A stretch of 64,000 nt of DNA from Synergistetes bacterium HGW-Synergistetes-1 (GTDB taxonomy: Bacteria > Synergistota > Synergistia > Synergistales > Synergistaceae): NCBI GenBank assembly GCA_002839185.1, contig PGXO01000001.1, forward strand, positions 186,001 through 250,000. The letters are read 5' to 3'. The number at the start of each line of letters is the position of its first letter. Positions within the stretch are counted from its first letter, which is position 1. The notes under the pieces are model-generated. The model was not told the origin of the DNA. It worked only from the letters and a program-made list of their open reading frames with translations, and ran no database searches. Below are positions 45,296 to 62,501 of the stretch, piece after piece. Position numbers and translations under genes: made by a program.

Positions 45296-46690
45296 TTAAC
45301 CCTCCGTTAATAGTGCCACAAGCCTCTTTAGTCCGTAAGAGTTTGAACCCTTTACCAAAATCACTGAATCAGGAAAGGATACTGTACGGGTGAGGTTTGT
45401 TATTTCTTCGAACGTCCTGTACCGTTGCGCGTTGACAGGCATTTCGACCGTTGGGTCAAACCATTCTTCTCCCAAAAGAATGACATTGCTGAACGCGGGG
45501 AGCGACCTGAGTATCTCCATATGCCATTGAGCCGAAGCCCCGCCAAGTTCTCTCATTCCGCCAAGTACGGCATATGCCGAAAGCCCTGAACTCTCTGCCA
45601 CTTCTATGGTATTTTCGATCGCCGCCATCATTGAGCGGGGATTGGCATTGTATGCCTCATCTATTACCCATTGATTTTGGGGCAGTTTTTTACATATACC
45701 TCTACCTGATATTGGCAAGAATTTTAGAAGTATTTCTGTGGCTTCTGAAATTTCCACTCCAAAACTCTGTGCCGCAATGAAGGCATAACCAACATTATAC
45801 GAATGCTGGGATCCGAAAAGTCCGGTCTTAAGTTCAAAGCGTTTTCCATCAAGATCATATGAAGATATTAGAAGAGCTCCTTCACCCGACAGTGAGATAA
45901 CAGAATCAACGATTTTAAGTCCGCTTTGTTCTTTAATTCCAACTCCGATTTTCATAATGTTATTATAATTATAAGACAGTTTATTTTTAAGAAGCTCATT
46001 ATCTGAGTTATATATTATCATTTCAAGTTTTTCCGAGGTACATATCTCCATTTTGGCACTTAGAACGCCTTCAATGTCCTTGAAGCCTTCCAGGTGTGCC
46101 GGAGCGACCTCAGTGATGATCGCCAGGTGAGGAGGAAAGAGTGATACCATATCCCTTATCTCGCCAAAATGGTTCGTCCCGAACTCAAGTATCAATATTT
46201 CCGTATCTTCAGGCATGGCAAGGATGGTCAGGCTGCATCCGATGACAGTGTTAAAGCTTCTGATAGCGCTGTGGACCTTTTTACCTGGCTGCAGAAGGCT
46301 CACTGTTAGCTCCCTGGTTGTCGTTTTCCCCACGCTGCCAGTTATTCCAATTACCTTGGGTGCCTGAACTTTTAGATATTCGCGGGCTATCTCTGCAAGT
46401 GCTTTTTCTGTATCGGGAACTGCTATAACTGCAATCCCTGCATATTCGAGCTCCAGAAGCATGAGTTCTTCTATCTTGTCCGAATTTACAAGCAGAAGCT
46501 TTGCTCCTCTTTCTACTGCTTTATGCACAAAATTATGCCCATCTGCATTCTCACCTTTTAATGCAACAAACGCATCTCCCGGACCTACTTCTCTGCTGTC
46601 ATTCTTCCATGAACGGCACAACTGGATATCAGGCCCGTAATGTATTCCGCCTGACCATAAAACAGCATCTGAAACCCTGGACTGTGACAT
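45296..46690 (-). CDS. murF: UDP-MurNAc-tripeptide-D-Ala-D-Ala ligase
   Basis: Adds the D-Ala-D-Ala dipeptide. ATP loop GITGSVGKTTTREL is near 112, EFGTNHFGEIRDM near 165, EVAPAHLEGFKD near 190, and DEAYNANPRSMMAAI near 335. The ATG at 46690 shares its A with the murE1 stop (TGATG), so the pair is translationally coupled. An upstream in-frame ATG at 46723 would overlap murE1 and has no RBS. Confidence 0.94.
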   Translation of the reverse strand: MSQSRVSDAVLWSGGIHYGPDIQLCRSWKNDSREVGPGDAFVALKGENADGHNFVHKAVERGAKLLLVNSDKIEELMLLELEYAGIAVIAVPDTEKALAEIAREYLKVQAPKVIGITGSVGKTTTRELTVSLLQPGKKVHSAIRSFNTVIGCSLTILAMPEDTEILILEFGTNHFGEIRDMVSLFPPHLAIITEVAPAHLEGFKDIEGVLSAKMEICTSEKLEMIIYNSDNELLKNKLSYNYNNIMKIGVGIKEQSGLKIVDSVISLSGEGALLISSYDLDGKRFELKTGLFGSQHSYNVGYAFIAAQSFGVEISEATEILLKFLPISGRGICKKLPQNQWVIDEAYNANPRSMMAAIENTIEVAESSGLSAYAVLGGMRELGGASAQWHMEILRSLPAFSNVILLGEEWFDPTVEMPVNAQRYRTFEEITNLTRTVSFPDSVILVKGSNSYGLKRLVALLTEG

Positions 46691-48195
46691 CAGATCACCT
46701 CTTTGCCTTTTTCCCTGCACCACTCCAGCATGACGTTTTTATCCAGGAACGGTATCGCCCCATCTTTCAGTATCTGGTATGGTTCAGGTCCCTTCCCCGC
46801 TATCAGGAGGATATCATCCGGGCCTGTCCTGCTAAGCCCTTCAAATATCGCTGATTTCCTGTCTACTATAATTGTGTATTCAAGAGAGTGTTTTTTCGCT
46901 CCCTCTTCTATTTCGGAAACTATGACGTCAGGATCTTCGCTTCTTGGGTTGTCCGAAGTAATGATGACGGAATCAGCAAGCCTTGCTGCTATCTCACCCA
47001 TTATGGGACGTTTTGTCTTATCCCTGTCGCCCCCGGCACCGAAGACAACGAAGAGCTTCCCTTTGCAGACGCTTCTGAGGGACATAAGCACTTTTTCAAG
47101 GCTGTCCGGGCTGTGGGCAAAATCGATCACACATGTGCCAGAGCCTGATATTATGTAGCGTTCAAGCCTTCCGGGAACCTGTTTCATCAACAGCAGCCCC
47201 TCCATTGCAGTTTTGTCGCGTACTCCCAGTGACCAGCATATTGAAAGAGCTTGAAGAGCATTCATGATATTGTACTCTCCCAGCAAAGGAAGCCGTGAAG
47301 CAACCGGTATCTTTGAATCCGGTGTGCTTATTTCGACATCCATGCCTTCGATCGAAGTTCCCTTGACCTCAGCAAAGAATCTTGAGTCTTTTTCACTTGT
47401 GCCATAACTGATCGCCCTGCTGCCAAGGTCGCTTATGAGGCGCCTCCCATAGCTGTCATCACTGTTTACTGCAGCCATCCAGTTGTTTCGCATATATTTT
47501 TCAAAAAGGGTCTTTTTGGCCGTAAAGTAGGATTCCATGTCTTTATGGAAGTCAAGGTGGTCTACTGTCAGATTCGTAAAGCCTGCCCGGTCAAAGAAAA
47601 CTCCTTCTATTCTTCCCTGAACTATCGCGTGGGAAGAGGTCTCCATTACACATGCGCTGCAGCCGTTATTGACCATCCTGCTGAGCCAGTACTGAAGATC
47701 GGAGCCTTCGGGGGTAGTATGTTCGGCATCCACAAATTGATCTCCGTCATCGTAGTATATAGTACCCAACAAGCCTGTTTTGATCCCTGCGTGATCAAGG
47801 ATCGATTTTGTCATAAAAGTAGATGTAGTCTTTCCGTTTGTACCGGTCAGGGCGATCATCGTCAGTTTCTTTACCGGTTCGTCATAAAGGACCGATGCGA
47901 CTATCCCCATGTTGCGCCTGATATTCTCAGAAATGATCTGCGGCACCTGGAGGTCGAGCTTCCGTTCGCACAGCAGTACAGAAGCTCCCGATGTGAAAGC
48001 TTTTTCAGCATAGTCATGCCCGTCGCTGTGGTCTCCCTTAACGCAGGCAAATATCGTCCCCGGAAGAACCTTTCTGCTGTCTGAAACCAATTGGGAAATT
48101 TCAGGGTCATTTTCCGAGCTCCGGTTCTCCGGCAGCCACAATCTGTATTTCAGATCGCTTTTTTCAAGTTTTGCAAGCAATTCTCTTATTTTCAC
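46690..48195 (-). CDS. murE: UDP-MurNAc-dipeptide ligase MurE, copy 1 (canonical)
   Basis: Third-residue Mur ligase of 501 residues. P-loop GTNGKTT is at 118-124, TTPEGSD at 160-166, NLTVDHLDFHKDM with the carbamylated lysine K227 in FTAKKTLF, GAGGDRDKTKRP at 386-397, DNPR at 415-418, and AGKGPEPYQ at 466-474. DNPR is the motif by which MurE enzymes recognise meso-diaminopimelate, and GGDRD is the usual conserved loop. The start is GTG 48195 after GGGGGTG. This copy looks like the normal enzyme; compare copy 2, which lies directly upstream. Confidence 0.93.
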   Translation of the reverse strand: MKIRELLAKLEKSDLKYRLWLPENRSSENDPEISQLVSDSRKVLPGTIFACVKGDHSDGHDYAEKAFTSGASVLLCERKLDLQVPQIISENIRRNMGIVASVLYDEPVKKLTMIALTGTNGKTTSTFMTKSILDHAGIKTGLLGTIYYDDGDQFVDAEHTTPEGSDLQYWLSRMVNNGCSACVMETSSHAIVQGRIEGVFFDRAGFTNLTVDHLDFHKDMESYFTAKKTLFEKYMRNNWMAAVNSDDSYGRRLISDLGSRAISYGTSEKDSRFFAEVKGTSIEGMDVEISTPDSKIPVASRLPLLGEYNIMNALQALSICWSLGVRDKTAMEGLLLMKQVPGRLERYIISGSGTCVIDFAHSPDSLEKVLMSLRSVCKGKLFVVFGAGGDRDKTKRPIMGEIAARLADSVIITSDNPRSEDPDVIVSEIEEGAKKHSLEYTIIVDRKSAIFEGLSRTGPDDILLIAGKGPEPYQILKDGAIPFLDKNVMLEWCREKGKEVI

Positions 48196-48268
48196 AAAAA
48201 CACCCCCGCTTACAGGTCAGTTTTCAAATTTTAATATTTAATGAGGAGAGTTGAAAATACAAATATTA

Positions 48269-49777
48269 TCAGATATACTTTCTGCCCCTTTTACTGCACC
48301 AAGCATCCATTGCATTCTTATCAGAATATGGGACAGGCCCTTCCTTCAGTATCTGATAAGATTCGGGACCTTTGCCGGCAAGCAGCAGTATATCTCCGCT
48401 CTTCAGGTTTTCAAGGCCAAAATCAACTGCTTCGTTTCTGTCGATAATAACACTGCATTCAGCCGCATGTTTTTTGGCTCCCTCAAGTATCTCTGCGGCA
48501 ATGGCTGCAGGGTCCTCGCTTTTGGGATTGTCAGAGCTTATGATCACTTGGTCAGCAATTCTGGATGCAGTCTCTCCCATAAGGGGGCGCTTACTTATAT
48601 CGCTCTCTCCGCTTGCGCCGAAAACAACTGTCAGTTTCCCCTCGCATATTGTCCTCAGTGCAGTAAGGATCTTTTCAAGACCGTCCGGGTTATGCGCAAA
48701 ATCTATTACACATGTTCCGCTCTCTTCAATAAGGTATCTTTCAAGGCGGCCCGGCACCTGCCTCATTTTGACAAGTCCCTCAAGCGCGGCTTCACATCCT
48801 ATGCCAAGTGTCCAGGAAAGAGAGAGGGCCTGAAGAGCGTTCATAACATTGTAGACGCCAAGAAGCGGAAATTTTCTCTCTGTGGGGTTTTTCAGATCGG
48901 GTGTTTTTATCTCTACATCCATGCCTTCAACCGAAACTTTTTTCACACATGCGCAAAAATCCGCCTCGCTGTTCATAAGACTGTATCCAACGCAGCGTAT
49001 TCCAAGTTCCCGGTGAAGACGATCTCCGTACGGGTCATCAAGGTTAACGGCCGCACGCCAGTCACCGCGCATGTAGTTTTTGAAGAGGCTGCTTTTTACT
49101 TCGAAGTAGGATTCCATGTCAAGGTGGTAATTGAGATGATCTACAGTCAGATTGGTAAAACCTGCCCTGTCATAGAGTACCCCGTCGATGCGTCCCTGAC
49201 TTATGGCGTGGGATGAAGCCTCCATTACACAGGTACTGCATCCGTTTAAGACCATTTTGTGGAGCCAGGCCTGAAGGTCGGAGCCTTCCGGTGTCGTGTG
49301 CTCTGCATCTTCTTTCAGTATCCCGTCGTCACACCAGACTGTCCCAAGCAGGCCTGTCTTTATTCCTAAATTCTCCAAAATAGACTTTGTCATGAATGTA
49401 GAGGTAGTTTTGCCGTTGGTACCAGTTATCCCAATCATCTTAAGCCTGGAAACAGGTTCGTCATACAGTTTAGAGGCGACCCGGCCCATGTTTCTCCTGA
49501 CGTCAGGACAGACCAGCTGTGGAATATCGATATCAATTAAGGGGTGTTCACAAAGCAGAGCTGCTGCACCTAAGGAAAGTGCCGCCTGCGCAAAGTCATG
49601 CCCGTCTGAATGCTCGCCTTCCACACATGCAAAAATAGAACCCTTTGTGACTTTCCTGCTGTCCGAGACCAAATTATCAACTTCAGTCAGCAAGAGATTT
49701 CCGGGATCTGAAGTACTGTGGATCCTGACATCTAGAGGGCTTTTTTTCAACAATGAAACCAGAGTGCTAAACTTCAT
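48269..49777 (-). CDS. MurE paralogue, copy 2 (altered motifs)
   Basis: Second MurE-like ligase, 502 residues, aligned end to end with copy 1. The ATP loop GTNGKTT (119-125), TTPEGSD and the lysine K228 in FEVKSSLF are kept, so the ATPase/ligase core looks intact. Two conserved sites are changed: GGDRD is SGESD (GASGESDISKRP), and the amino-acid motif DNPR is DNPK at 416-419. It may add a different diamino acid or have another role; decay is less likely because the frame is intact. I choose ATG 49777, 8 nt after GAGGTG, over a TTG at 49792. It precedes copy 1 by 73 nt. Confidence 0.88.
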   Translation of the reverse strand: MKFSTLVSLLKKSPLDVRIHSTSDPGNLLLTEVDNLVSDSRKVTKGSIFACVEGEHSDGHDFAQAALSLGAAALLCEHPLIDIDIPQLVCPDVRRNMGRVASKLYDEPVSRLKMIGITGTNGKTTSTFMTKSILENLGIKTGLLGTVWCDDGILKEDAEHTTPEGSDLQAWLHKMVLNGCSTCVMEASSHAISQGRIDGVLYDRAGFTNLTVDHLNYHLDMESYFEVKSSLFKNYMRGDWRAAVNLDDPYGDRLHRELGIRCVGYSLMNSEADFCACVKKVSVEGMDVEIKTPDLKNPTERKFPLLGVYNVMNALQALSLSWTLGIGCEAALEGLVKMRQVPGRLERYLIEESGTCVIDFAHNPDGLEKILTALRTICEGKLTVVFGASGESDISKRPLMGETASRIADQVIISSDNPKSEDPAAIAAEILEGAKKHAAECSVIIDRNEAVDFGLENLKSGDILLLAGKGPESYQILKEGPVPYSDKNAMDAWCSKRGRKYI

Positions 49778-49871
49778 ACAAATACACCTCAATCAGACCC
49801 AAAGCGCAATTTTATTACCAATATATTCAAAGGGTCAAGAAATAAATTATCAGTTAATACTCACCGATCTT

Positions 49872-51587
49872 TCAGTTTAATTCGGTTTTCATAAGATCCT
49901 TTTCAGGAGGAGATACCTGCACAATGTCTTCAACAATCGCTTTGAATATAGGTGCCGCTATCTGGCCGCCGTAGTACCTGGCACCCTGCGGCTCACCGAG
50001 GCTGATTATCATCACATACTTTGGTTTTTCAGACGGCCAGAAACCCACAAAAGAAGCGACATAATGTCCTTTGGTATATTCGCCACCCGTTGCGATCTGG
50101 GCAGTCCCTGTTTTACCCGATATTGAAACTTTTTCCGTAAAAGCAAGTTTGCCTCCACCTTCACTTACAACCATTTTCATCGCGTTCCTCATAAACTCCG
50201 CGGTCTTGGGCGACATGACCTGATAGCGTACCCTGCGTCCGCCTTTATGTATTACCTTGCCATCACTGTCCTGTACCTCTGCTATCAGATAAGGTTTCAG
50301 CAGCGATCCGCCGTTGGCTATGCTGCCGATCGCCATGACCGCCTGCAGCGGAGTAATCGCGATTCCCTGTCCGATAAAAATATTTGCTGGAACAGTTCCA
50401 AGCCACTCTTCGGGGGATTTGATAAGCCCCGACTCCTCTCCCGCAAGCTCGATCTCTGTTTTTTCACCGAAACCGAACTGCCTGAGCATTCCGTATGCCT
50501 GATGCCTCGGTACTCCCATAGACATAATGCTCATTCCAATATTGCAGGAATTCATCAATACGTGAGTAAGATCCTGGAGTCCGTGCGCTCTTTTGTTGAC
50601 TTCGCTCATGGACTTGTCTGCAAGCCTCATGGTGCCTCTGCAGTTATAAGTACTGTTCTTATTAGCAGCAGCTGTTTCGACCGCTATTGACATTGTAATA
50701 GGCTTAAAGATCGATCCGGGTTCGAACACTCTTCCTACTGCATTATTCCTTACTGCATTTTGATCTTTAAGATTTTTCCTGTCATTTGGATCCAACGAAG
50801 GATAACTTGCAAGAGCCATAACCTCTCCGGTATTAGGATCCACACAGACACCGGCGCCCCATGAAGCTTTTGCGGCTTTTGCCCCTTCGCTCAAACGCCA
50901 CTCCATTATCTGCTGTATCCGTGAATCTATCGTCAGTCTTATCGAGCCGGAAGTGTTTTTCAGGACTCCTGATTTTCCACCCATGATATCCAATGTTTTT
51001 CCTTTGGAATCCCTTGTCATAAATCTTGTCCTGGGAGGCGAGAAAAGTATGTGGTTCCAGGCAAGCTCAACTCCGGCCTGTCCGTAATCATCAATATCAC
51101 AATAACCAAGAACATGTGATGCTAGCTCTCCATGGGGATAGACTCTGATCCTCTCGCTTATCGTATAGAGTCCCGGAATCTCTTTTTTTAAAAATGCATC
51201 TGCTTTTTCTTTTGGAACATTCCTTATGACCCAATGGAATCGGCCCAGAAGATTTTTGGAGAATTTCTTTGCTATGTTTTCGCCGAATGGTTTTGAAAGC
51301 AGATCAGCGCTTTTAGGATCCCAATACTTTGGGTCTATAAAAAAACTTGTGGCAGGCACAGAGACTGCCAGCGGGATCCCGTTACGGTCATTTATTTCCC
51401 CTCTGGAGGCACTGACTGCCACGCTTGCCCAGTATTGTCTCTGCGACTGCCTTACTACTCTTGTGTCGGGGCTGAGCTGGATCCATGCCGTACCTGCCGC
51501 AAGGATTATCAGCACTAAATATACGGCCTTCCACACAGACTTTGACCGTCTGATGTTCTCAGGCTCATTCTTTTTAATTCTTGGCAT
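49872..51587 (-). CDS. ftsI: Septal transpeptidase FtsI (PBP3/PBP2B class)
   Basis: Class B penicillin-binding protein of 571 residues with one N-terminal membrane segment (18-36), a PBP dimer domain (45-200), and the transpeptidase domain. Catalytic serine is in GSIFKPITMS near 293 (SxxK). The SxN motif is SCN in MNSCNIGMS near 347, and KTG is SGKTGTAQI near 495. There is no PASTA domain at the C-terminus. It overlaps the ftsL end by 14 nt. Confidence 0.96.
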   Translation of the reverse strand: MPRIKKNEPENIRRSKSVWKAVYLVLIILAAGTAWIQLSPDTRVVRQSQRQYWASVAVSASRGEINDRNGIPLAVSVPATSFFIDPKYWDPKSADLLSKPFGENIAKKFSKNLLGRFHWVIRNVPKEKADAFLKKEIPGLYTISERIRVYPHGELASHVLGYCDIDDYGQAGVELAWNHILFSPPRTRFMTRDSKGKTLDIMGGKSGVLKNTSGSIRLTIDSRIQQIMEWRLSEGAKAAKASWGAGVCVDPNTGEVMALASYPSLDPNDRKNLKDQNAVRNNAVGRVFEPGSIFKPITMSIAVETAAANKNSTYNCRGTMRLADKSMSEVNKRAHGLQDLTHVLMNSCNIGMSIMSMGVPRHQAYGMLRQFGFGEKTEIELAGEESGLIKSPEEWLGTVPANIFIGQGIAITPLQAVMAIGSIANGGSLLKPYLIAEVQDSDGKVIHKGGRRVRYQVMSPKTAEFMRNAMKMVVSEGGGKLAFTEKVSISGKTGTAQIATGGEYTKGHYVASFVGFWPSEKPKYVMIISLGEPQGARYYGGQIAAPIFKAIVEDIVQVSPPEKDLMKTELN

Positions 51588-54090: not shown

Positions 54091-54717
54091 TTAGTGGGAA
54101 CGGACGATCTCCTTTATGACCATCAGCCTCGAAAGGGTTGAGCGTTCCATTTCCTCGAGCTTCATTGAGATAGAGTGAATTGCTTCAACAAACGAAGGGA
54201 TCATTACGTGCTCCAGTGCGTTTACCCTTCTCCTTGTCCTCTCTATCTCCAGAGCCATTGACCTGAGGGCTTTCTCTTCAGCGGCAAGTTTTACCAGCCT
54301 TGGCATAAGTTTCAAAAACTGCTCAAGTGCAATGTCAAGGCTTCCCGGTGAAGTGCCAAGTCCGTAGTTGAGCTCGACTTTCTGTTCAGGCAGCTCAAAC
54401 GAAGGGGCGCGTACACTCATTATGTTTACAAAATGTACATTTACTCTCATGTTTCCGCCTGCGTTCATGAGGGTCTGTTCCAGCATTTCCGGCAGAGTCT
54501 GTGCTCTTGCAAGCAGGAAACCCGCATAGCAGGAACTGATCTCTTTTTCGATCTCCTGCCTGAGTTCCCAGACAAATTTCGCTTTCGCAAGAAAGGCCTT
54601 AACGAGTGCGTCCTGCTTATCTTTCAGCAGTTTGTGCCCCCTCTTGGCTACGACAAGCTGTCTTTTGAGCTTTGAAAGCTCCATCCGGTTGGGGTTGACG
54701 TTCAGTGCCTTCGCCAT
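54091..54717 (-). CDS. atpD: V-type ATP synthase subunit D
   Basis: Central rotor shaft of the V/A-type ATPase, 208 residues, almost wholly helical. The opening LNVNPNRMELSKLKRQLVVAKRGHKLLKDKQDAL and the later RTRRRVNALEHVMIPSF are the standard V-type D patterns. Last gene of the nine-gene operon; 16 nt follow subunit B. Confidence 0.95.
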   Translation of the reverse strand: MAKALNVNPNRMELSKLKRQLVVAKRGHKLLKDKQDALVKAFLAKAKFVWELRQEIEKEISSCYAGFLLARAQTLPEMLEQTLMNAGGNMRVNVHFVNIMSVRAPSFELPEQKVELNYGLGTSPGSLDIALEQFLKLMPRLVKLAAEEKALRSMALEIERTRRRVNALEHVMIPSFVEAIHSISMKLEEMERSTLSRLMVIKEIVRSH

Positions 54718-54733
54718 TAGAGGTCACCCCCTC

Positions 54734-56155
54734 CTATGCTTCTTTGATCTCAAGCGTCTCGTCTTTTTTTGCTTCGACCAGCGGCTTCAGATATTTATCG
54801 ATATACTCGTCCCTCACACGCTTAAGTTCCTTGGTAGGAACGATGGTCAGGAGTTCCCATCCAAGAAGCAGGGTTTCCTCTACGGTCCTGTTCTCATATT
54901 CTCCCTGACGTACATATTTGTCTTCAAAGAGGTCTGCAAACTTGGCGAATGCCTTGTCTTCATCAGAAAGGGCTCCCTCTCCGAGGATGACTGCAAGTTC
55001 TTTGGCTTCCTTACCCCTTGAATACGCAGCAAAGAGCTGGTTCATCAGGTCCGCATGGTCCTCGCGGGTTTTGCCTTTTCCTATTCCCTTGTCCTTAAGA
55101 CGGGAAAGGGAGGGCATGACATCAACAGGCGGATATATCCCTTTGCGGTGGAGTCCTCTTGCCAGAATGATCTGCCCCTCAGTGATGTATCCCGTAAGGT
55201 CCGGGATGGGGTGTGTCTTGTCGTCTTCAGGCATTGTGAGTATCGGTAGCTGCGTAATTGATCCCTCTTTGCCGCGAAGCCTTCCTGCCCTCTCGTACAT
55301 TGTGGCAAGGTCAGTATATAGATAGCCTGGGTAGCCGCGGCGGCCCGGGACCTCTTTACGTGCAGCTGAGATCTCTCGCAGCGCTTCGCAGTAGTTCGTA
55401 AGGTCAGTAAGTATTACCAGTACGTGCATGCCCTGTTCAAAAGCAAGATATTCAGCTGCTGTAAGAGCAAGGCGCGGAGTTGAAATACGCTCGATCGCAG
55501 GGTCATCTGCAAGGTTTACAAACATTACCGTACGTTCGAGGGCTCCCGTCTTCCTGAAGTCTTCCATGAAGAAAGATGCTTCTTCAAAGGTGATGCCCAT
55601 CGCTGCGAATACAACAGCAAAATTAGCGTGGCCGCTGATAACCGTAGCCTGGCGTGCTATCTGGGCTGCTATCTGGTTATGAGGCATACCGCTTCCGGAG
55701 AATATCGGCAGCTTTTGGCCCCTGACAAGGGGGTTCATTCCGTCGATCGTCGAGATGCCTGTCTGGATGAACTCTGACGGGAAGTCACGTGAGAACGGGT
55801 TGATAGGGTCTCCGTTGACATCAAGGTATGCTTCGGGAATTATAGGGGCACCGCCGTCTATGGGGTCTCCCCTTCCGTTGAATATTCGTCCAAGCATGTC
55901 CTTTGAGACAGGCAGCTTGAGGACATCGCCCAGAAACCTTATCTGGGTGGTGTTGACGTCTATGCCGGTGCTTCCTTCATAAACCTGAACAAGAGCTTTG
56001 GTCTCTGAAATCTCCAGTACCCTTCCGCGCCTGCGCTCACCATTGGCGAGACGGATCTCCGCCAGTTCGTCATAGCTGACATCTTCGATCTTTTCAACCA
56101 CCATAAGCGGACCGGAGAGGTTGGAGATCGTTTTATACTCCTTAGGCAACATCAT
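54734..56155 (-). CDS. atpB: V-type ATP synthase subunit B
   Basis: Non-catalytic subunit of the soluble head, about 473 residues. Features are [51 protein letters not shown], and [22 protein letters not shown], where the P-loop lysine of the A subunit is absent, as expected for B. I choose ATG 56155 with GGAGG 8 nt upstream; it overlaps the atpA stop. Confidence 0.95.
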
Positions 56156-57941
56156 CAAGGCCACCTCCAGCAGCGCTCAGTTTCCCGAGTTCAGTCTTTA
56201 TTGCAGTCTCAAGAACGTCTAAGTTCTCCAGATCACTCTCTTCAATGTATCTCATACGTGCGATATCTTCTCTGATAGGAAGGTCAATAACAGAGCGAAG
56301 CATTCCTCCGCGGACGAGTACCTGCATTCCAAGACAATGGAAAGTGAGGATGTTTCTGAGCATTTTGAACTGCTTGTCCATAGATGCGTAGGTGTCTATC
56401 TCGTGGAATGAGTTCTGGTGCAGAAAGTCCTCCCTTATTGATTTTGAAGTCTCAAGCACCATTCTTTCTTCCTTGGAAAGGGCATCCAGACCGACAAGGC
56501 GAACTATTTCCTTCAGCTTGTCCTCGTCTTCGAGCAGGCTCATCGCTTCAGTTCTGTATGTGCTCCATTCTCCGTCATATATGGCATCCCAGTATTCACC
56601 CAGAGTATGGGCGTAGAGGGAGTAACTCGAAAGCCAGTTGATAGCAGGGAAATGTCTCTGGTAAGCCAGCTGTGCGTCCAATCCCCAGAAAACCTTTGTA
56701 ACGCGCAGAGTGTTCTGTGTGACAGGCTCCGAAAGGTCTCCTCCCGGAGGTGAGACCGCTCCGATAACAGAAATGGCCCCTTCTCTTCCGTCGCTTCCAA
56801 AACAGATAGCCCTTCCTGCTCTTTCGTAGAATGATGCAAGTCTTGTCCCGAGGTAAGCGGGGTAACCTTCTTCTCCTGGCATCTCTTCAAGACGTCCAGA
56901 CATTTCACGCAGAGCCTCCGCCCAGCGCGATGTCGAGTCGGCCATCAGAGCTACAGAATAGCCCATGTCACGGAAATATTCCGCTATCGTGATACCCGTG
57001 TATATTGAAGCTTCACGGGCAGCGACAGGCATGTTGGAAGTATTTGCTATAAGAAGGGTCCTCTTCATAAGAGGCTGTCCCGAACGGGGATCCTCAAGTT
57101 CAGGGAATTCAAGGAGAACATCCGTCATCTCATTTCCGCGTTCTCCGCATCCGATGTAAACAACTATTTCTGCGTCAGCCCACTTTGCAAGCTGATGCTG
57201 TATAACAGTCTTTCCTGAACCGAAAGGTCCTGGCACGCATGCCGTTCCTCCCCTGGCTATCGGAAAAAATGTATCTACAACCCTCTGTCCGGTCGTAAGC
57301 GGTATTTCCGGCGGAAGTCTCTTTACTACAGGACGTGGTTTACGTACAGGCCATCTCTGCAGAAGTTTGATCTCGTGGTCATTACCCTTTGCGTCTGTAA
57401 TGACAGCGATGGTCTCTTCTACTGTGAAATCTCCCTGTTTGATTTCTTTAACCTTTCCTTTGACTCCGTGCGGAACCATGACCTTGTGATCCACAAGGAC
57501 GGTCTCCTGTACAGAACCAAGGAAATCTCCGACAGCAACTTCAGCTCCGGCTTCAACACATGGAACAAAACCCCATTTTTTAGTCCTGCTCACTGCGGGA
57601 ACACTTATTCCGCGAAGTATGTACGGGCTGTTAGCCGTTTTTTCGATGCTTTCAAGCGGACGCTGGATGCCGTCGAAAAACTCTTCTATCAGTCCGGGTG
57701 CAAGTTCAACACTTAAAGGTTCCCCCGTGCTGACAACAGGCTCTCCGGGCTTCAGTCCGGAAGTTTCTTCATATACCTGAACAGAAGCCGTATCATCTTT
57801 CAGTTCAATAATTTCACCGACAAGGCCTGCGTCTCCGACTCTTACAACGTCGAACATGCAGGCTCCGGCCATGCCTTTAGCAATGACAAGCGGACCGGAG
57901 ATCTTTGCGATGAATCCTGCTATGGCATTAGGAGTAGCCAC
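56142..57941 (-). CDS. atpA: V-type ATP synthase catalytic subunit A
   Basis: Catalytic subunit, 599 residues. It includes the V-type non-homologous insert (about residues 110-200), Walker [13 protein letters not shown] near 233, [21 protein letters not shown] near 258, and [39 protein letters not shown] near 330. The start is GTG 57941 behind GGAGGCGAT. With ATP it pumps ions, or it runs in reverse. Confidence 0.96.
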
Positions 57942-57961
57942 TCACATCGCCTCCATTTTCA

Positions 57962-58303
57962 TCATTTCACACCAAAGATATCCATGCCAACAGCACGCTC
58001 TACGTTGCGTCTGATAGAGCTGAGACCGACTCCCATGGATCCGCTTTGGTTGGGTACTGGAATTATGCACATATCTGTAGATTCGTTGACTTCATCAACA
58101 GCTTGCTGGTACTTGGAGAAAAGGGCTTCCTCAACAAAGAGGGCAGCGTATCCCTTAATGGCAAACCTGTTCATGATCTCCCCGATAGAATCCCTGTTCT
58201 CATCTGTTATTTCAACAACATCAAGTCCTATAGCCTTAAATGGAAGTATGCTGTCATAGCTTCCGACTGCTGCCATCGGTGAACCCTGATTAGACGTAGC
58301 CAT
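57962..58303 (-). CDS. atpF: V-type ATP synthase subunit F
   Basis: Small stalk subunit of 113 residues (called NtpG in Enterococcus). A Rossmann-like fold with DSILPFKAIGLDVVEI, GYAALFVEEAL, IIPVPNQSGSMGVGLSSIRRNVERAVGMDI. It binds subunit D in the rotor. It overlaps the atpC end by 14 nt. Confidence 0.92.
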   Translation of the reverse strand: MATSNQGSPMAAVGSYDSILPFKAIGLDVVEITDENRDSIGEIMNRFAIKGYAALFVEEALFSKYQQAVDEVNESTDMCIIPVPNQSGSMGVGLSSIRRNVERAVGMDIFGVK

Positions 58304-59306
58304 GGCGCATAAGCCTCCTTAGATGGTCCTTGTCCCCTTTGTTTCTTTTGGAGACCGTGATCACCCTGATGTTTTTTATTTCCATTTCCTTGGCCCAAAG
58401 GTAGGCCGGAATGTTCTCAGGAGCAGAAGGGCTGTATCTTCCTGCGGCGATCTTCTCCATGTAACAGTCATCCAGAACCCTCTCCAGTGAAAGGATGAGG
58501 TCTGAATAACCGCCTGACGCATCAATACTCCCTATAATTTTTCCGAAATCGGAGAACTCAATTGCCCTGCCCCAGGTTTCAAACGGTTCAGATATAAGGG
58601 ATGCCAGCATGCTGACATCAATGGTGCCGCCATCGTGAAGGAATGGAAGCGCTTTTGACGCATCGTAATTGAACCTTTTGAGCCTCAGCAGGGTCCGTAT
58701 ATTCTCTCCGTCAGTCCTTGTCCGGATCCAGCTTATTATCCCAGGCATATCCAGCTCATGAGCTTTTTCAAGCATCACTTCGAACATTCTCTTATCGATA
58801 AGTCTCTCAACCTCGAGAACGTCCCTGCTCTGTTCCCAGATCGTTATGCATTTGGGGATCAGAGTGTTGAGGCCGAATGGAAGAAGTCTGTATTCTTCCG
58901 ATTCGACGTTCATGATGAGATCGTCCAAAGGATAAGATCCCAGCGATGTGAGCAGATCCCACCTCTTTTTACCTCCGGTCCTGACATTGAACATGCTTTT
59001 CAGCAGAACTTTCACATTATGGAAGTCATACTGCAGTCTCATAATATCAACCATTGCCTTGTCAGGGACGAAGGTACGAATCTCTTCATATATGCTGTGC
59101 AGGTCTGCTTCAAGAACTTTGTCAAAGTCAGACCCGTTTGTCTGGGAAGTAAGCGCGGAGGAATATGATGTCTCCCCAAGTATCTTGAGGATGGACGCAA
59201 AATCTTCGGCGTCGATCATTCTCTGCAAAACTCCGGAATCAAGAAGGCGATGCTCCATTGCGCGGATACGTGCAACAGCATAACCGTATGCCCCTTGACT
59301 TGACAT
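58290..59306 (-). CDS. atpC: V-type ATP synthase subunit C
   Basis: Funnel-shaped rotor socket that joins the central stalk to the membrane ring, 338 residues, mostly helical. Signs are YGYAVARIRAMEHRLLD, LQYDFHNVKVLLKS, GIISWIRTRTDGENIRTLLRLKRF and the C-terminal YLWAKEMEIKNIRVITVSKRNK. 13 nt separate it from atpE. Confidence 0.93.
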   Translation of the reverse strand: MSSQGAYGYAVARIRAMEHRLLDSGVLQRMIDAEDFASILKILGETSYSSALTSQTNGSDFDKVLEADLHSIYEEIRTFVPDKAMVDIMRLQYDFHNVKVLLKSMFNVRTGGKKRWDLLTSLGSYPLDDLIMNVESEEYRLLPFGLNTLIPKCITIWEQSRDVLEVERLIDKRMFEVMLEKAHELDMPGIISWIRTRTDGENIRTLLRLKRFNYDASKALPFLHDGGTIDVSMLASLISEPFETWGRAIEFSDFGKIIGSIDASGGYSDLILSLERVLDDCYMEKIAAGRYSPSAPENIPAYLWAKEMEIKNIRVITVSKRNKGDKDHLRRLMRHGYV

Positions 59307-59319
59307 CAGGCCACCTCCC

Positions 59320-59910
59320 TCATTCCGCTGATGACGGGAACAAACGTTTTACGACGTCGGATTCCTGCTTTTCCTGAGCTATCTGAATAAGCATGTCCCA
59401 TGAGCAGTTTGTACTTATCTTTCCTCTCGTGAGTATGAATCCCCCGGCAATATCAGGCTTATCCTCGGAAAAGACAAGTTCGGTCCCATTTTCCTTATTG
59501 AAACCGTCAAGCCAGGCTTGATCCAGGTATTTTTCTTCACGTGAGATCTGTATCTCTTCTTTTTTAGTTGTTACTGCGCATTTAAGAAGCACTTCACAGA
59601 GTTTTACGTAATCATCCCTATCGATCATCCTCATTTTTCCAAGGGACAGGTCATAAACATCCTGTATCAGATTACGGCTGGATTGAAGCATCATCTTTTT
59701 GACATCCAGATTCGCGACTATTTCACGACGACGGAAAATCTCAGGACGCTCAACTTCAAAACGGCGAATAAAGCCAGATTTTATCGAGTCAATTTCCTCT
59801 TCCGCTCTCTGTGCTGTAAGCTCAGCCTTGGCCTTGGCCTTAGCCAGTATTTCATCGGCCTCGCGCTGGGCGTCGCTTCTGATCTTTTCTGTTATCTGGG
59901 CCAAAGACAT
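59320..59910 (-). CDS. atpE: V-type ATP synthase subunit E
   Basis: Peripheral stalk subunit of 196 residues. A long charged N-terminal helix (residues 5-75, AQREADEILAKAKAKAELTAQRAEEEIDS) is followed by a globular C-terminal domain with PDIAGGFILTRGKISTNCSWDML. It pairs with the small H/G subunit encoded at the head of the operon. Confidence 0.92.
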   Translation of the reverse strand: MSLAQITEKIRSDAQREADEILAKAKAKAELTAQRAEEEIDSIKSGFIRRFEVERPEIFRRREIVANLDVKKMMLQSSRNLIQDVYDLSLGKMRMIDRDDYVKLCEVLLKCAVTTKKEEIQISREEKYLDQAWLDGFNKENGTELVFSEDKPDIAGGFILTRGKISTNCSWDMLIQIAQEKQESDVVKRLFPSSAE

Positions 59911-59928
59911 GGTCTTCCCCCGTTCTTT

Positions 59929-60429
59929 TTAAAGCTTTATGCCATTGAGCATCAAAATACTGACAAGAAGCCCAAAGACTGCATATGTTTCACACATAGC
60001 CGGGAGGATAACAGCTTTGCCTATCTGCTCCGGACGCTTGGATATCATCAAGATCGAAGCGGCTGAAGATTTACCCTGCCAGATAGCAGAATAGAAACCG
60101 GAGATAGCGACAGGAAGGCATGCAAAACAAATACCAAGTCCCTGCCAGACAGTAAGGGTAACACCGCCTGCTCCGAGAAGCCCTGCCTTCTGAAGGGAGA
60201 GGACTGCAACAAGCAGACCGTATATACCCTGTGTTCCGGGAAGGGCAAGAAGGACGAGCGCATAACCGAATTTTTTTGGATCCTCAGTCATGACACCGGC
60301 GGCAGCTTCATTGGCTATGCCTATTCCCCATGCAGATCCTGAACCTGCAAAACCTACTGCCAGTGCTGCCCCAAGTATTACAAGCATCGGGCCAAGCTGT
60401 TCGGAAATCGTTGCGAGCATTGTTTCCAT
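59929..60429 (-). CDS. atpK: V-type ATP synthase subunit K (Na+-type c ring)
   Basis: Membrane ring subunit of 166 residues with four membrane helices in two hairpins. The second hairpin has the ion carboxylate E147 (CETYAVFG); the first has Q instead (LPGTQGIYG). The residues matching E. hirae NtpK L61, T64, Q65, Y68, Q110 and E139 are L63, T66, Q67, Y70, Q118 and E147, with a constant shift in each hairpin, so Na+ binding is very likely. I choose ATG 60429; a TTG at 60438 is too close to the GGAGG. Confidence 0.94.
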   Translation of the reverse strand: METMLATISEQLGPMLVILGAALAVGFAGSGSAWGIGIANEAAAGVMTEDPKKFGYALVLLALPGTQGIYGLLVAVLSLQKAGLLGAGGVTLTVWQGLGICFACLPVAISGFYSAIWQGKSSAASILMISKRPEQIGKAVILPAMCETYAVFGLLVSILMLNGIKL

Positions 60430-60491
60430 AGTGAACAATTACCTCCTCAGTTAATAAATACTATATTTTTTGTTTATATGCTTCAAAAAAC

Positions 60492-62501
60492 CTATTGTTT
60501 TTCTTCTGTCAAGCGGGCAAACGTTGTCACATTGCGCAACGGAGTAAAATCTTTCCCGTTCGCGTCGTAAAACTTACCAAAGAACTCCACATACTGAAGC
60601 CTCAGTGAGTGGATGAAAGCCCCAAGAAGGTTGACAGCTATACTGAAAAGGTGCCCTATTACAAAAATCAGTATGGCCAGAGGTATTCCGACATAAGGTG
60701 TCCCGGCAACGAGATTTGCAAGCAGGTTTATTACCATTCCGACGGCTGCAGATCCGAGACCCAGGGCCAGCAGTCTGCTGTAGCTGAGCACATCTCCGAG
60801 ATAGCCTGTTACGTTGTAGAGACTCAAAACACCGGAGAAGAGCTTGCCTGCAATGTTTGATTTTGTCCTTCCCTGCGTCGCAACAAGGACCAGCGCCCCG
60901 GCAATGGCAATGTATTTTGAGACGGAAGCCACTGTACCTGTCAGCATCCCGGAAGAACTGAGCCCTGTAAGCAGAAGGCCGCACAGGAACAATATCCATC
61001 CTCCGTGATCGGCCAGAGCTTCAAAGTGCTCTCCGTTGGTCCAGCTGTTCTTGAAGGCTATCAAAAGACCAAAGATGACCTGTATGAATCCCAGTCCCAG
61101 CGAGATCGCGAGCAGCGTCATGGGATCATTCATCGGATCCAGGAGCTGCAAAGCATCCTTAATTGGCACAAGTGAGCTGAGGAACGGGAATGCCGTAATG
61201 CTGTCACCGAACCAGGAGCCGGTAAAAGCCCCGAAAATGACGGAGACTATCATTCCAACAGTAAGCATGATAAAAAATTTGCGCAGTGTAGGTGAAAGTT
61301 GGTGTTTAATGATAAAGTACCCGAATATTCCGCTTAATACCAGACCGTATCCGGCATCGCCGAAACACATCCCAAGGAAAAGGAAGAAAAATGGCGCCAT
61401 TAGAGACGTCGGATCAACTCCTCCATAAGTGGGGGTACCGTACATAAGGGTAAGAGGTTCCATCGAAGATGCCCAGCCCGGATTTTTGAGCAGCGTCGGG
61501 GGCAGCTCACCTTCATCAGGTTCTATAAGTGAAAATTCAGAGAGTGACTCATAGGGACGGACAGTTTTCTCTACCATGCCCCGGCAATCCCTGGGCATCC
61601 AGAAAGACCAGATAAAAACATCATCTGTCGGTACGCCCGAGATCATGGATTCTATCCTGTCACTGAGTATGCTCCAGTAATCCCCGTAGTAGCGTGCCAT
61701 ATCAAGACCTTCCTCCGCCTTTGATGCGATCTCCGCACAGAGTACTGCTTCTTCCTTCTCTGTTTTTTCTATTTCCGAAGTCAGCTTTACGCGTTCTTCT
61801 TCGGCAGTCAGCTCAAAATCTTTAGGTACGTCGAGCCTTCCTGCAGAAAATTCGGAAGCAATGGCCTGTATTTTTTCCAGGTCAGATTTTTTGAAAAGTA
61901 CTGCAAATGTTGAAACAGGGTCTTTTTCATTTTCGGGGAGCTTCTGGTATTCAACAAAATCGCCAAGTTCTGATCCAAGCCCTGAGACAAACCCGGCAAC
62001 AGATGACTTTGGTATTGTGTAAACAGCCCCGCCTATCATTTCTGTACCTGTTGTAAAAAATTCCAGAGGATATTTGATCGAATTAAGGAGCATTGACTGC
62101 GTAAGAAGACCCTTGAGCCTGGAAATTTCCGCTCTGGTCTCTGTTGCTTTCTTTTCTTTTTCCCGGAGTTCCGCAACAAATGCCCTGAATTTGCCTTCGT
62201 CAGCTTTTGCCGCAAGCTCAGAAAATCCAATGGTAGGAATATCGCCCAACATCCTGGCGATCGAACTGCCCTTGTTTACTTCAAATGGTTCAAGAAGGCG
62301 CACAGTAAATCTTACATCGCTGAGAAGCTCGTCTATCTGACGCTGCCTGGCCCGAAGCTGGAGCATTGCCGAGCTGTCTATCGCACCGCTGCCCTCTCCT
62401 GTAAACTCGCAGCAGCCCAGTGCCTGCAATTTTTCTACAAGCTCATCTGCAACAGATTTATGAACAGCTATCCGCGCCTTACTCATTTCAGCAAGAGCCA
62501 T
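60492..62501 (-). CDS. atpI: V-type ATP synthase subunit I
   Basis: Membrane stator of 669 residues. The N-terminal cytoplasmic half (1-350) contains coiled coils; the C-terminal half has about eight membrane helices. Motifs include PFFFLFLGMCFGDAGYGLVL and LGDVLSYSRLLALGLGSAAVGMVIN, whose arginine (R in YSRLLALG) is the channel residue. It overlaps the preceding small-subunit gene by 14 nt. Confidence 0.95.
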   Translation of the reverse strand: MALAEMSKARIAVHKSVADELVEKLQALGCCEFTGEGSGAIDSSAMLQLRARQRQIDELLSDVRFTVRLLEPFEVNKGSSIARMLGDIPTIGFSELAAKADEGKFRAFVAELREKEKKATETRAEISRLKGLLTQSMLLNSIKYPLEFFTTGTEMIGGAVYTIPKSSVAGFVSGLGSELGDFVEYQKLPENEKDPVSTFAVLFKKSDLEKIQAIASEFSAGRLDVPKDFELTAEEERVKLTSEIEKTEKEEAVLCAEIASKAEEGLDMARYYGDYWSILSDRIESMISGVPTDDVFIWSFWMPRDCRGMVEKTVRPYESLSEFSLIEPDEGELPPTLLKNPGWASSMEPLTLMYGTPTYGGVDPTSLMAPFFFLFLGMCFGDAGYGLVLSGIFGYFIIKHQLSPTLRKFFIMLTVGMIVSVIFGAFTGSWFGDSITAFPFLSSLVPIKDALQLLDPMNDPMTLLAISLGLGFIQVIFGLLIAFKNSWTNGEHFEALADHGGWILFLCGLLLTGLSSSGMLTGTVASVSKYIAIAGALVLVATQGRTKSNIAGKLFSGVLSLYNVTGYLGDVLSYSRLLALGLGSAAVGMVINLLANLVAGTPYVGIPLAILIFVIGHLFSIAVNLLGAFIHSLRLQYVEFFGKFYDANGKDFTPLRNVTTFARLTEEKQ

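Follow-up and report, generated by a model that had tools for sequence, protein, structure and literature searches.

We report a tandem pair of murE genes in the dcw cluster of an uncultured Synergistaceae genus, one member of which encodes a MurE paralogue without the near-invariant arginine that binds the substrate; the same loss recurs in an independent duplicate and in Thermotoga maritima. The residue at position 3 of the stem peptide determines the cross-link chemistry of peptidoglycan and its recognition by the immune system (NOD1 senses DAP), and to our knowledge, most bacteria have one MurE of nearly absolute specificity. A canonical and an arginine-less MurE in tandem provide a natural test of what sets the specificity of the enzyme, and they move attention from the DNPR motif to the GGDRD loop as its determinant. 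In the literature that we searched, we found no described murE1/murE2 pair in bacteria.

The tandem genes and their setting

Positions given without a locus handle refer to the window, the whole stretch of 64,000 nucleotides that was analysed. The tandem lies on the minus strand, between ftsI (49872..51587, minus strand), the upstream neighbour of copy 2 (48269..49777), and murF (45296..46690, minus strand), the downstream neighbour of copy 1 (46690..48195). It is part of a complete dcw cluster, all on the minus strand and in the order mraZ, mraW, ftsL, ftsI, murE copy 2, murE copy 1, murF, mraY, murD, ftsW, murG and murC, where the gene names other than murE were read off the translations. 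Upstream of the cluster and on the same strand, a V/A-type ATPase operon extends over 54091-62501, its subunits being recognised by eye in the translations.

Copy 1 starts with GTG and encodes 501 amino acids of the canonical meso-DAP type, with GGDRD and DNPR; copy 2 starts with ATG, encodes 502 amino acids and matches all three Pfam domains of the Mur ligases, Mur_ligase, Mur_ligase_M and Mur_ligase_C. The two proteins align end to end with 60.4% identity (BLASTP, 508 aligned columns; E below 1e-130, excluding similarity by chance), and both exceed the cut-off of 257 bits of the MurE model TIGR01085, copy 1 with 466 and copy 2 with 442 bits. An earlier, sequence-only reading of the same DNA had described two adjacent full-length murE genes, both with the ATP loop and the carbamylated lysine and differing in their motifs, GGDRD and DNPR in copy 1 and SGESD and DNPK in copy 2; all of this was borne out, the ATP loop being GTNGKTT in each copy.

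Besides this P-loop and the carbamylated lysine, both copies retain HTTPE, SSH and QGR, which we take to be the residues binding UDP-MurNAc-L-Ala-D-Glu, and copy 2 also has DNP, GKGxE, DHLN and AHN. By its three domains, its motifs and its TIGR01085 score, copy 2 is a member of the MurE family. It also passes the DAP-ligase model NF001126 of NCBIfam, with 469.7 bits (520.7 for copy 1; cut-off 373), but this is a whole-protein model and a passing score does not probe the pocket; as copy 2 passes it, automatic annotation hides its peculiarity. The AlphaFold (AF2) model of copy 2 has a pLDDT of 93.4 and a pTM of 0.91 and matches the MurE structures of Mycobacterium tuberculosis, Staphylococcus aureus, Escherichia coli and T. 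maritima, as well as those of plastid PAP11. Such confidence in a predicted structure speaks for a MurE fold and is not proof of activity.

In pairwise comparisons with unsaturated synonymous sites, copy 2 had a dN/dS of 0.06-0.15 and copy 1 one of 0.04-0.13; in the same genome pairs, copy 2 evolves somewhat faster, with dN of 0.17-0.24 vs. 0.12-0.18. Copy 2 is under purifying selection and is not a pseudogene, although selection of this kind does not by itself prove catalysis. The sequence-only reading would have been undone by a pseudogene in close relatives, and what we found there was a gene that is intact and without stops.

That the two copies would be made together, as had been proposed from their shared operon, is plausible for genes of one dcw cluster, but copy 2 has a promoter-like element of its own, and only copy 1 overlaps murF. 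The element, TTGACC-18-TAAAAT (49809..49838, minus strand), separates copy 2 from ftsI, and of the six genus members compared, five conserve it while its flanks drift; in the other Synergistaceae checked, the ftsI-murE gap is about 11-59 nt. We regard it as a candidate promoter, a match to the consensus being no proof of one. At the other end of the tandem, the stop codon of copy 1 overlaps the likely ATG of murF (TGATG), which suggests translational coupling.

Loss of an arginine from the amino-acid pocket

The change that defines copy 2 is the fixed loss of the arginine that corresponds to R389 of E. coli (given here in E. coli MurE numbering; the chain numbering of 7B6O is two higher), and not the lysine of DNPK. 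The arginine is replaced in the change from GGDRD to SGESD, the loop occupying residues 389-393 of copy 2 (48599..48613, minus strand) with Ser392 at the R389 position. Arginine stands at this position in all 108 canonical Synergistota MurE, in all 14 loci of other bacteria and in E. coli and M. tuberculosis; serine is found in all eight copy 2 proteins and in T. maritima MurE (4BUB), and asparagine in the duplicate MurE of another Synergistaceae genome, G064. Outside Synergistota, the frequency of the loss is judged from these 14 loci together with the PDB sequences compared. In E. coli, R389 binds DAP at the carboxylate of its L-stereocentre, and R416, the arginine of DNPR, interacts with both DAP centres (PMC9434261).

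The DNPK motif (residues 416-419; 48521..48532, minus strand, its coordinates like those of the loop being computed from the residue numbers) has lysine in six of the eight orthologues and arginine in two, and we therefore consider it a late and conservative change. The emphasis previously laid on this lysine was right in that DNPK is present in the copy 2 of the window, but the residue is not fixed, in contrast to the loss of the GGDRD arginine in eight of eight. Seven derived residues are common to the copy 2 clade, Y148C, D215N, S/T362N, V369I, G388S, D390E and R391S (copy 1 numbering), and two of these, G388S and D215N, hit residues that are otherwise invariant or near-invariant. The ligands of the distal carboxylate, Asn and either Lys or Arg, remain, and there is no change at the positions of D413 and N414. 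Compared with the meso-DAP type, the copy 2 of the window lacks both the arginine at the R389 position and DNPR.

Distribution and history of the pair

In a draw of 149 Synergistota genomes, nearly all have a single murE. Within the family, represented by 52 genomes, two murE genes are present in seven of the eight members of the genus, the eighth genome being 65% complete, and in one genome of a sister genus, G063. In six of the eight genomes carrying the pair, both copies are on one contig, and the copies have no stops. The pair is thus no general trait of Synergistota; the phylogeny that the sequence-only reading had called for, to see whether the whole phylum has the pair, confines it to this genus and the one sister genus and places separate duplications elsewhere.

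In a tree of 85 rows, the copy 2 proteins of the genus fall into a single clade together with the second copy of G063, with a support of 99/98, and the clade is still recovered, at 91/91, with the motif columns removed. The tree and the seven shared derived residues indicate that copy 2 arose once. An origin of the pair inside the genus is disfavoured, as the placement of copies 1 and 2 as sisters has an AU p of 0.018, and the duplication is thus older than the genus. For the two copies of G063, the AU test does not formally reject the corresponding sister placement (p 0.06 and 0.15). The order of the genes in that genome (L067:4752-7898) is reversed relative to the window genus, with the canonical copy first, and a partial gene conversion there is possible. 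We did not find dapF in the G063 genome, which is 96% complete.

Two further genomes, G064 and G134, have a second murE inside their dcw cluster. In G064, it comes after murF (L068:5703-7214) and groups with the canonical copy of the same genome (support 96/76 and 96/80), a placement that identifies it, at the level of sequence, as an independent duplication. In G134, the second gene (L069:7046-8554) lies between the first murE and murF, adjoining the canonical one, and takes a separate position in the tree with modest support; it has HTTSE, HLEYH and GGERD, the arginine being kept. In G114, of another family, two murE genes are found on different contigs (L070 and L071), one of which may be contamination.

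Specificity of copy 2 and comparison with known MurE proteins

We tentatively favour, at a little short of an even chance, the reading that copy 2 is an old, retained and active MurE paralogue whose specificity for the amino acid has been altered or relaxed, Lys or D-Lys being the most plausible substrates. Copy 1 would supply the ordinary meso-DAP tripeptide, and copy 2 would still be an ATP-dependent UDP-MurNAc-L-Ala-D-Glu:amino-acid ligase, its pocket remodelled where the attacking amine is held and lacking the arginine that would bind the alpha-carboxylate next to that amine. With this arginine lost, its range of diamino substrates could be shifted or broadened, and we infer both a catalytic activity of copy 2 and, as its substrate, Lys, D-Lys or another diamine rather than meso-DAP. 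The parallel with T. maritima puts Lys or D-Lys first among the candidates. Against this reading stand the retained ligands of the distal carboxylate, which would suit a substrate with such a group, like DAP or a reversed D-Lys, rather than L-Lys, the DDPR of T. maritima, which copy 2 does not have, and the single murF that serves both copies. Altered specificity, the central idea of the sequence-only reading, is still the best supported, the paralogue being old, intact and under selection, even though the telling change is not the one that had been stressed.

As for the metabolic context, dapF and lysA are both present in the window genome, and meso-DAP and L-Lys should therefore both be made; loss of the DAP pathway as a driver was rejected on the same grounds. 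Two Orr-like proteins of the ornithine racemase family, scoring 357 and 366 bits against a curated cut-off of 480, are a possible source of D-amino acids in the window genome; each is encoded beside a homoserine-dehydrogenase-like gene (C5, L146:3862-4944; C10, L147:4413-5555). A canonical alanine racemase was not found in the window genus, including the window genome, which is 99.9% complete. Its lack is common to several other Synergistaceae genera with one murE and is thus not linked to the murE duplication, and we dropped it as evidence tied to the two MurE proteins.

Several other explanations for copy 2 have to be weighed, and the one we take most seriously, while thinking it somewhat improbable, is a redundant or differently expressed meso-DAP isozyme in which the pocket changes alter only affinity or regulation. 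The promoter-like element that most of the genus conserves ahead of copy 2, where relatives have short ftsI-murE gaps only, would suit such an isozyme, as would the retained D413 and N414 equivalents and the conservative exchange of K for R; moreover, T. maritima MurE, with its Ser, takes meso-DAP in vitro (PMC9434261), so R389S is compatible with the use of meso-DAP. It is harder to see, however, why an isozyme would in every copy 2 have lost an arginine that is invariant in 122 other sampled MurE and have changed the positions of G388S and D215N as well. Loss of the amino-acid-binding arginine could also mean that copy 2 has little or no ligase activity and is kept in a structural or regulatory role comparable to that of PAP11, for example as a partner of MurE1, MurF, MurG or division proteins. 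The position of D215N, two residues from a His that is probably a metal ligand (the numbering being inferred), the match of PAP11 structures to the copy 2 model and the DNPK common in seed-plant homologues with a different role (PMC9434261) are all consistent with this, but the retained P-loop, carbamylated Lys, HTTPE, SSH, QGR, DNP and GKGxE and the low dN/dS speak against it, and we consider such a role unlikely.

Two further explanations fare worse. The changed amino-acid end of the pocket is the one feature that would fit a ligase of another acceptor or nucleophile, serving for instance recycling or a non-peptidoglycan precursor; as copy 2 shares with copy 1 the motifs to which binding of the UDP-MurNAc-dipeptide is usually attributed, the gene sits inside the dcw cluster and the best matches of copy 2 are MurE and not Mpl, this is very improbable. 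The faster evolution of copy 2 (dN as above) might be read as a young duplicate decaying into a pseudogene, or the pair as an assembly artefact, but the occurrence in seven of eight genus genomes and one sister genus, on the same contig in six of eight and without stops, the dN/dS of 0.06-0.15 and the old divergence contradict both, and we give them next to no credence.

We consider it a doubtful proposal that one operon makes two stem peptides, in which copy 1 adds meso-DAP and copy 2 adds lysine (it may be D-Lys, attached by the amine of its side chain) or another diamine, and that loss of the alpha-carboxylate arginine is a repeatable switch, thrown once in Thermotoga and, independently, in two lineages of Synergistaceae. 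A mixed-stem peptidoglycan would then be predicted for a member of the Synergistota, on whose peptidoglycan composition the literature that we searched held nothing usable.

Among characterised proteins, the meso-DAP enzymes (E. coli 1E8C, M. tuberculosis 2WTZ and copy 1 itself) share with copy 2 the three domains, the P-loop, the carbamylated Lys, the dipeptide motifs and the Asp and Asn of DNPR, but copy 2 has Ser for R389 and usually K for R416. Plant plastid PAP11, a MurE-like protein that forms part of the RNA polymerase of plastids, resembles copy 2 in its MurE fold and in the DNPK common in seed plants; PAP11 has long extensions, which are absent from copy 2, and copy 2 is encoded in a cell-wall operon. 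The L-Lys MurE of S. aureus (4C12/4C13) has, like most copy 2 proteins, a DNPx loop without Arg, in its case DNPA (PMC3829189), and contacts Lys through the arginine R383 (PMC9434261). Copy 2 is the reverse of this arrangement, with no Arg at the place of R383 and a positive charge in DNPK/R, and does not belong to the S. aureus type.

The closest parallel is with T. maritima, in which we know of no second MurE and whose enzyme reportedly joins D-Lys through the epsilon-amine, with no carboxylate near the attacking nitrogen. It adds L-Lys and D-Lys (PDB 4BUB), according to Boniface et al. 2006 as cited in PMC3829189. The two proteins share the Mur ligase fold, Ser in place of R389 (GGNSD vs. 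SGESD) and the Asp and Pro of DNPR; T. maritima MurE differs in having DDPR, where copy 2 proteins have DNPK or DNPR, and Gly before the loop, and the identity is only about 32%. As copy 2 nests within Synergistaceae MurE, the two are not joined by common descent and the change to Ser is independent. The second MurE of G064 is like copy 2 in lying within the dcw cluster and in having lost the same Arg, there to Asn (GGEND), and unlike it in its independent duplication, its place after murF, its DDPR and the change of CDSRK to CDDGK; its TTDDPRGEDP is a ten-residue string identical in T. maritima MurE. On the tree, the R389 arginine was lost separately in copy 2, in T. maritima MurE and in the duplicate of G064, and not through common descent.
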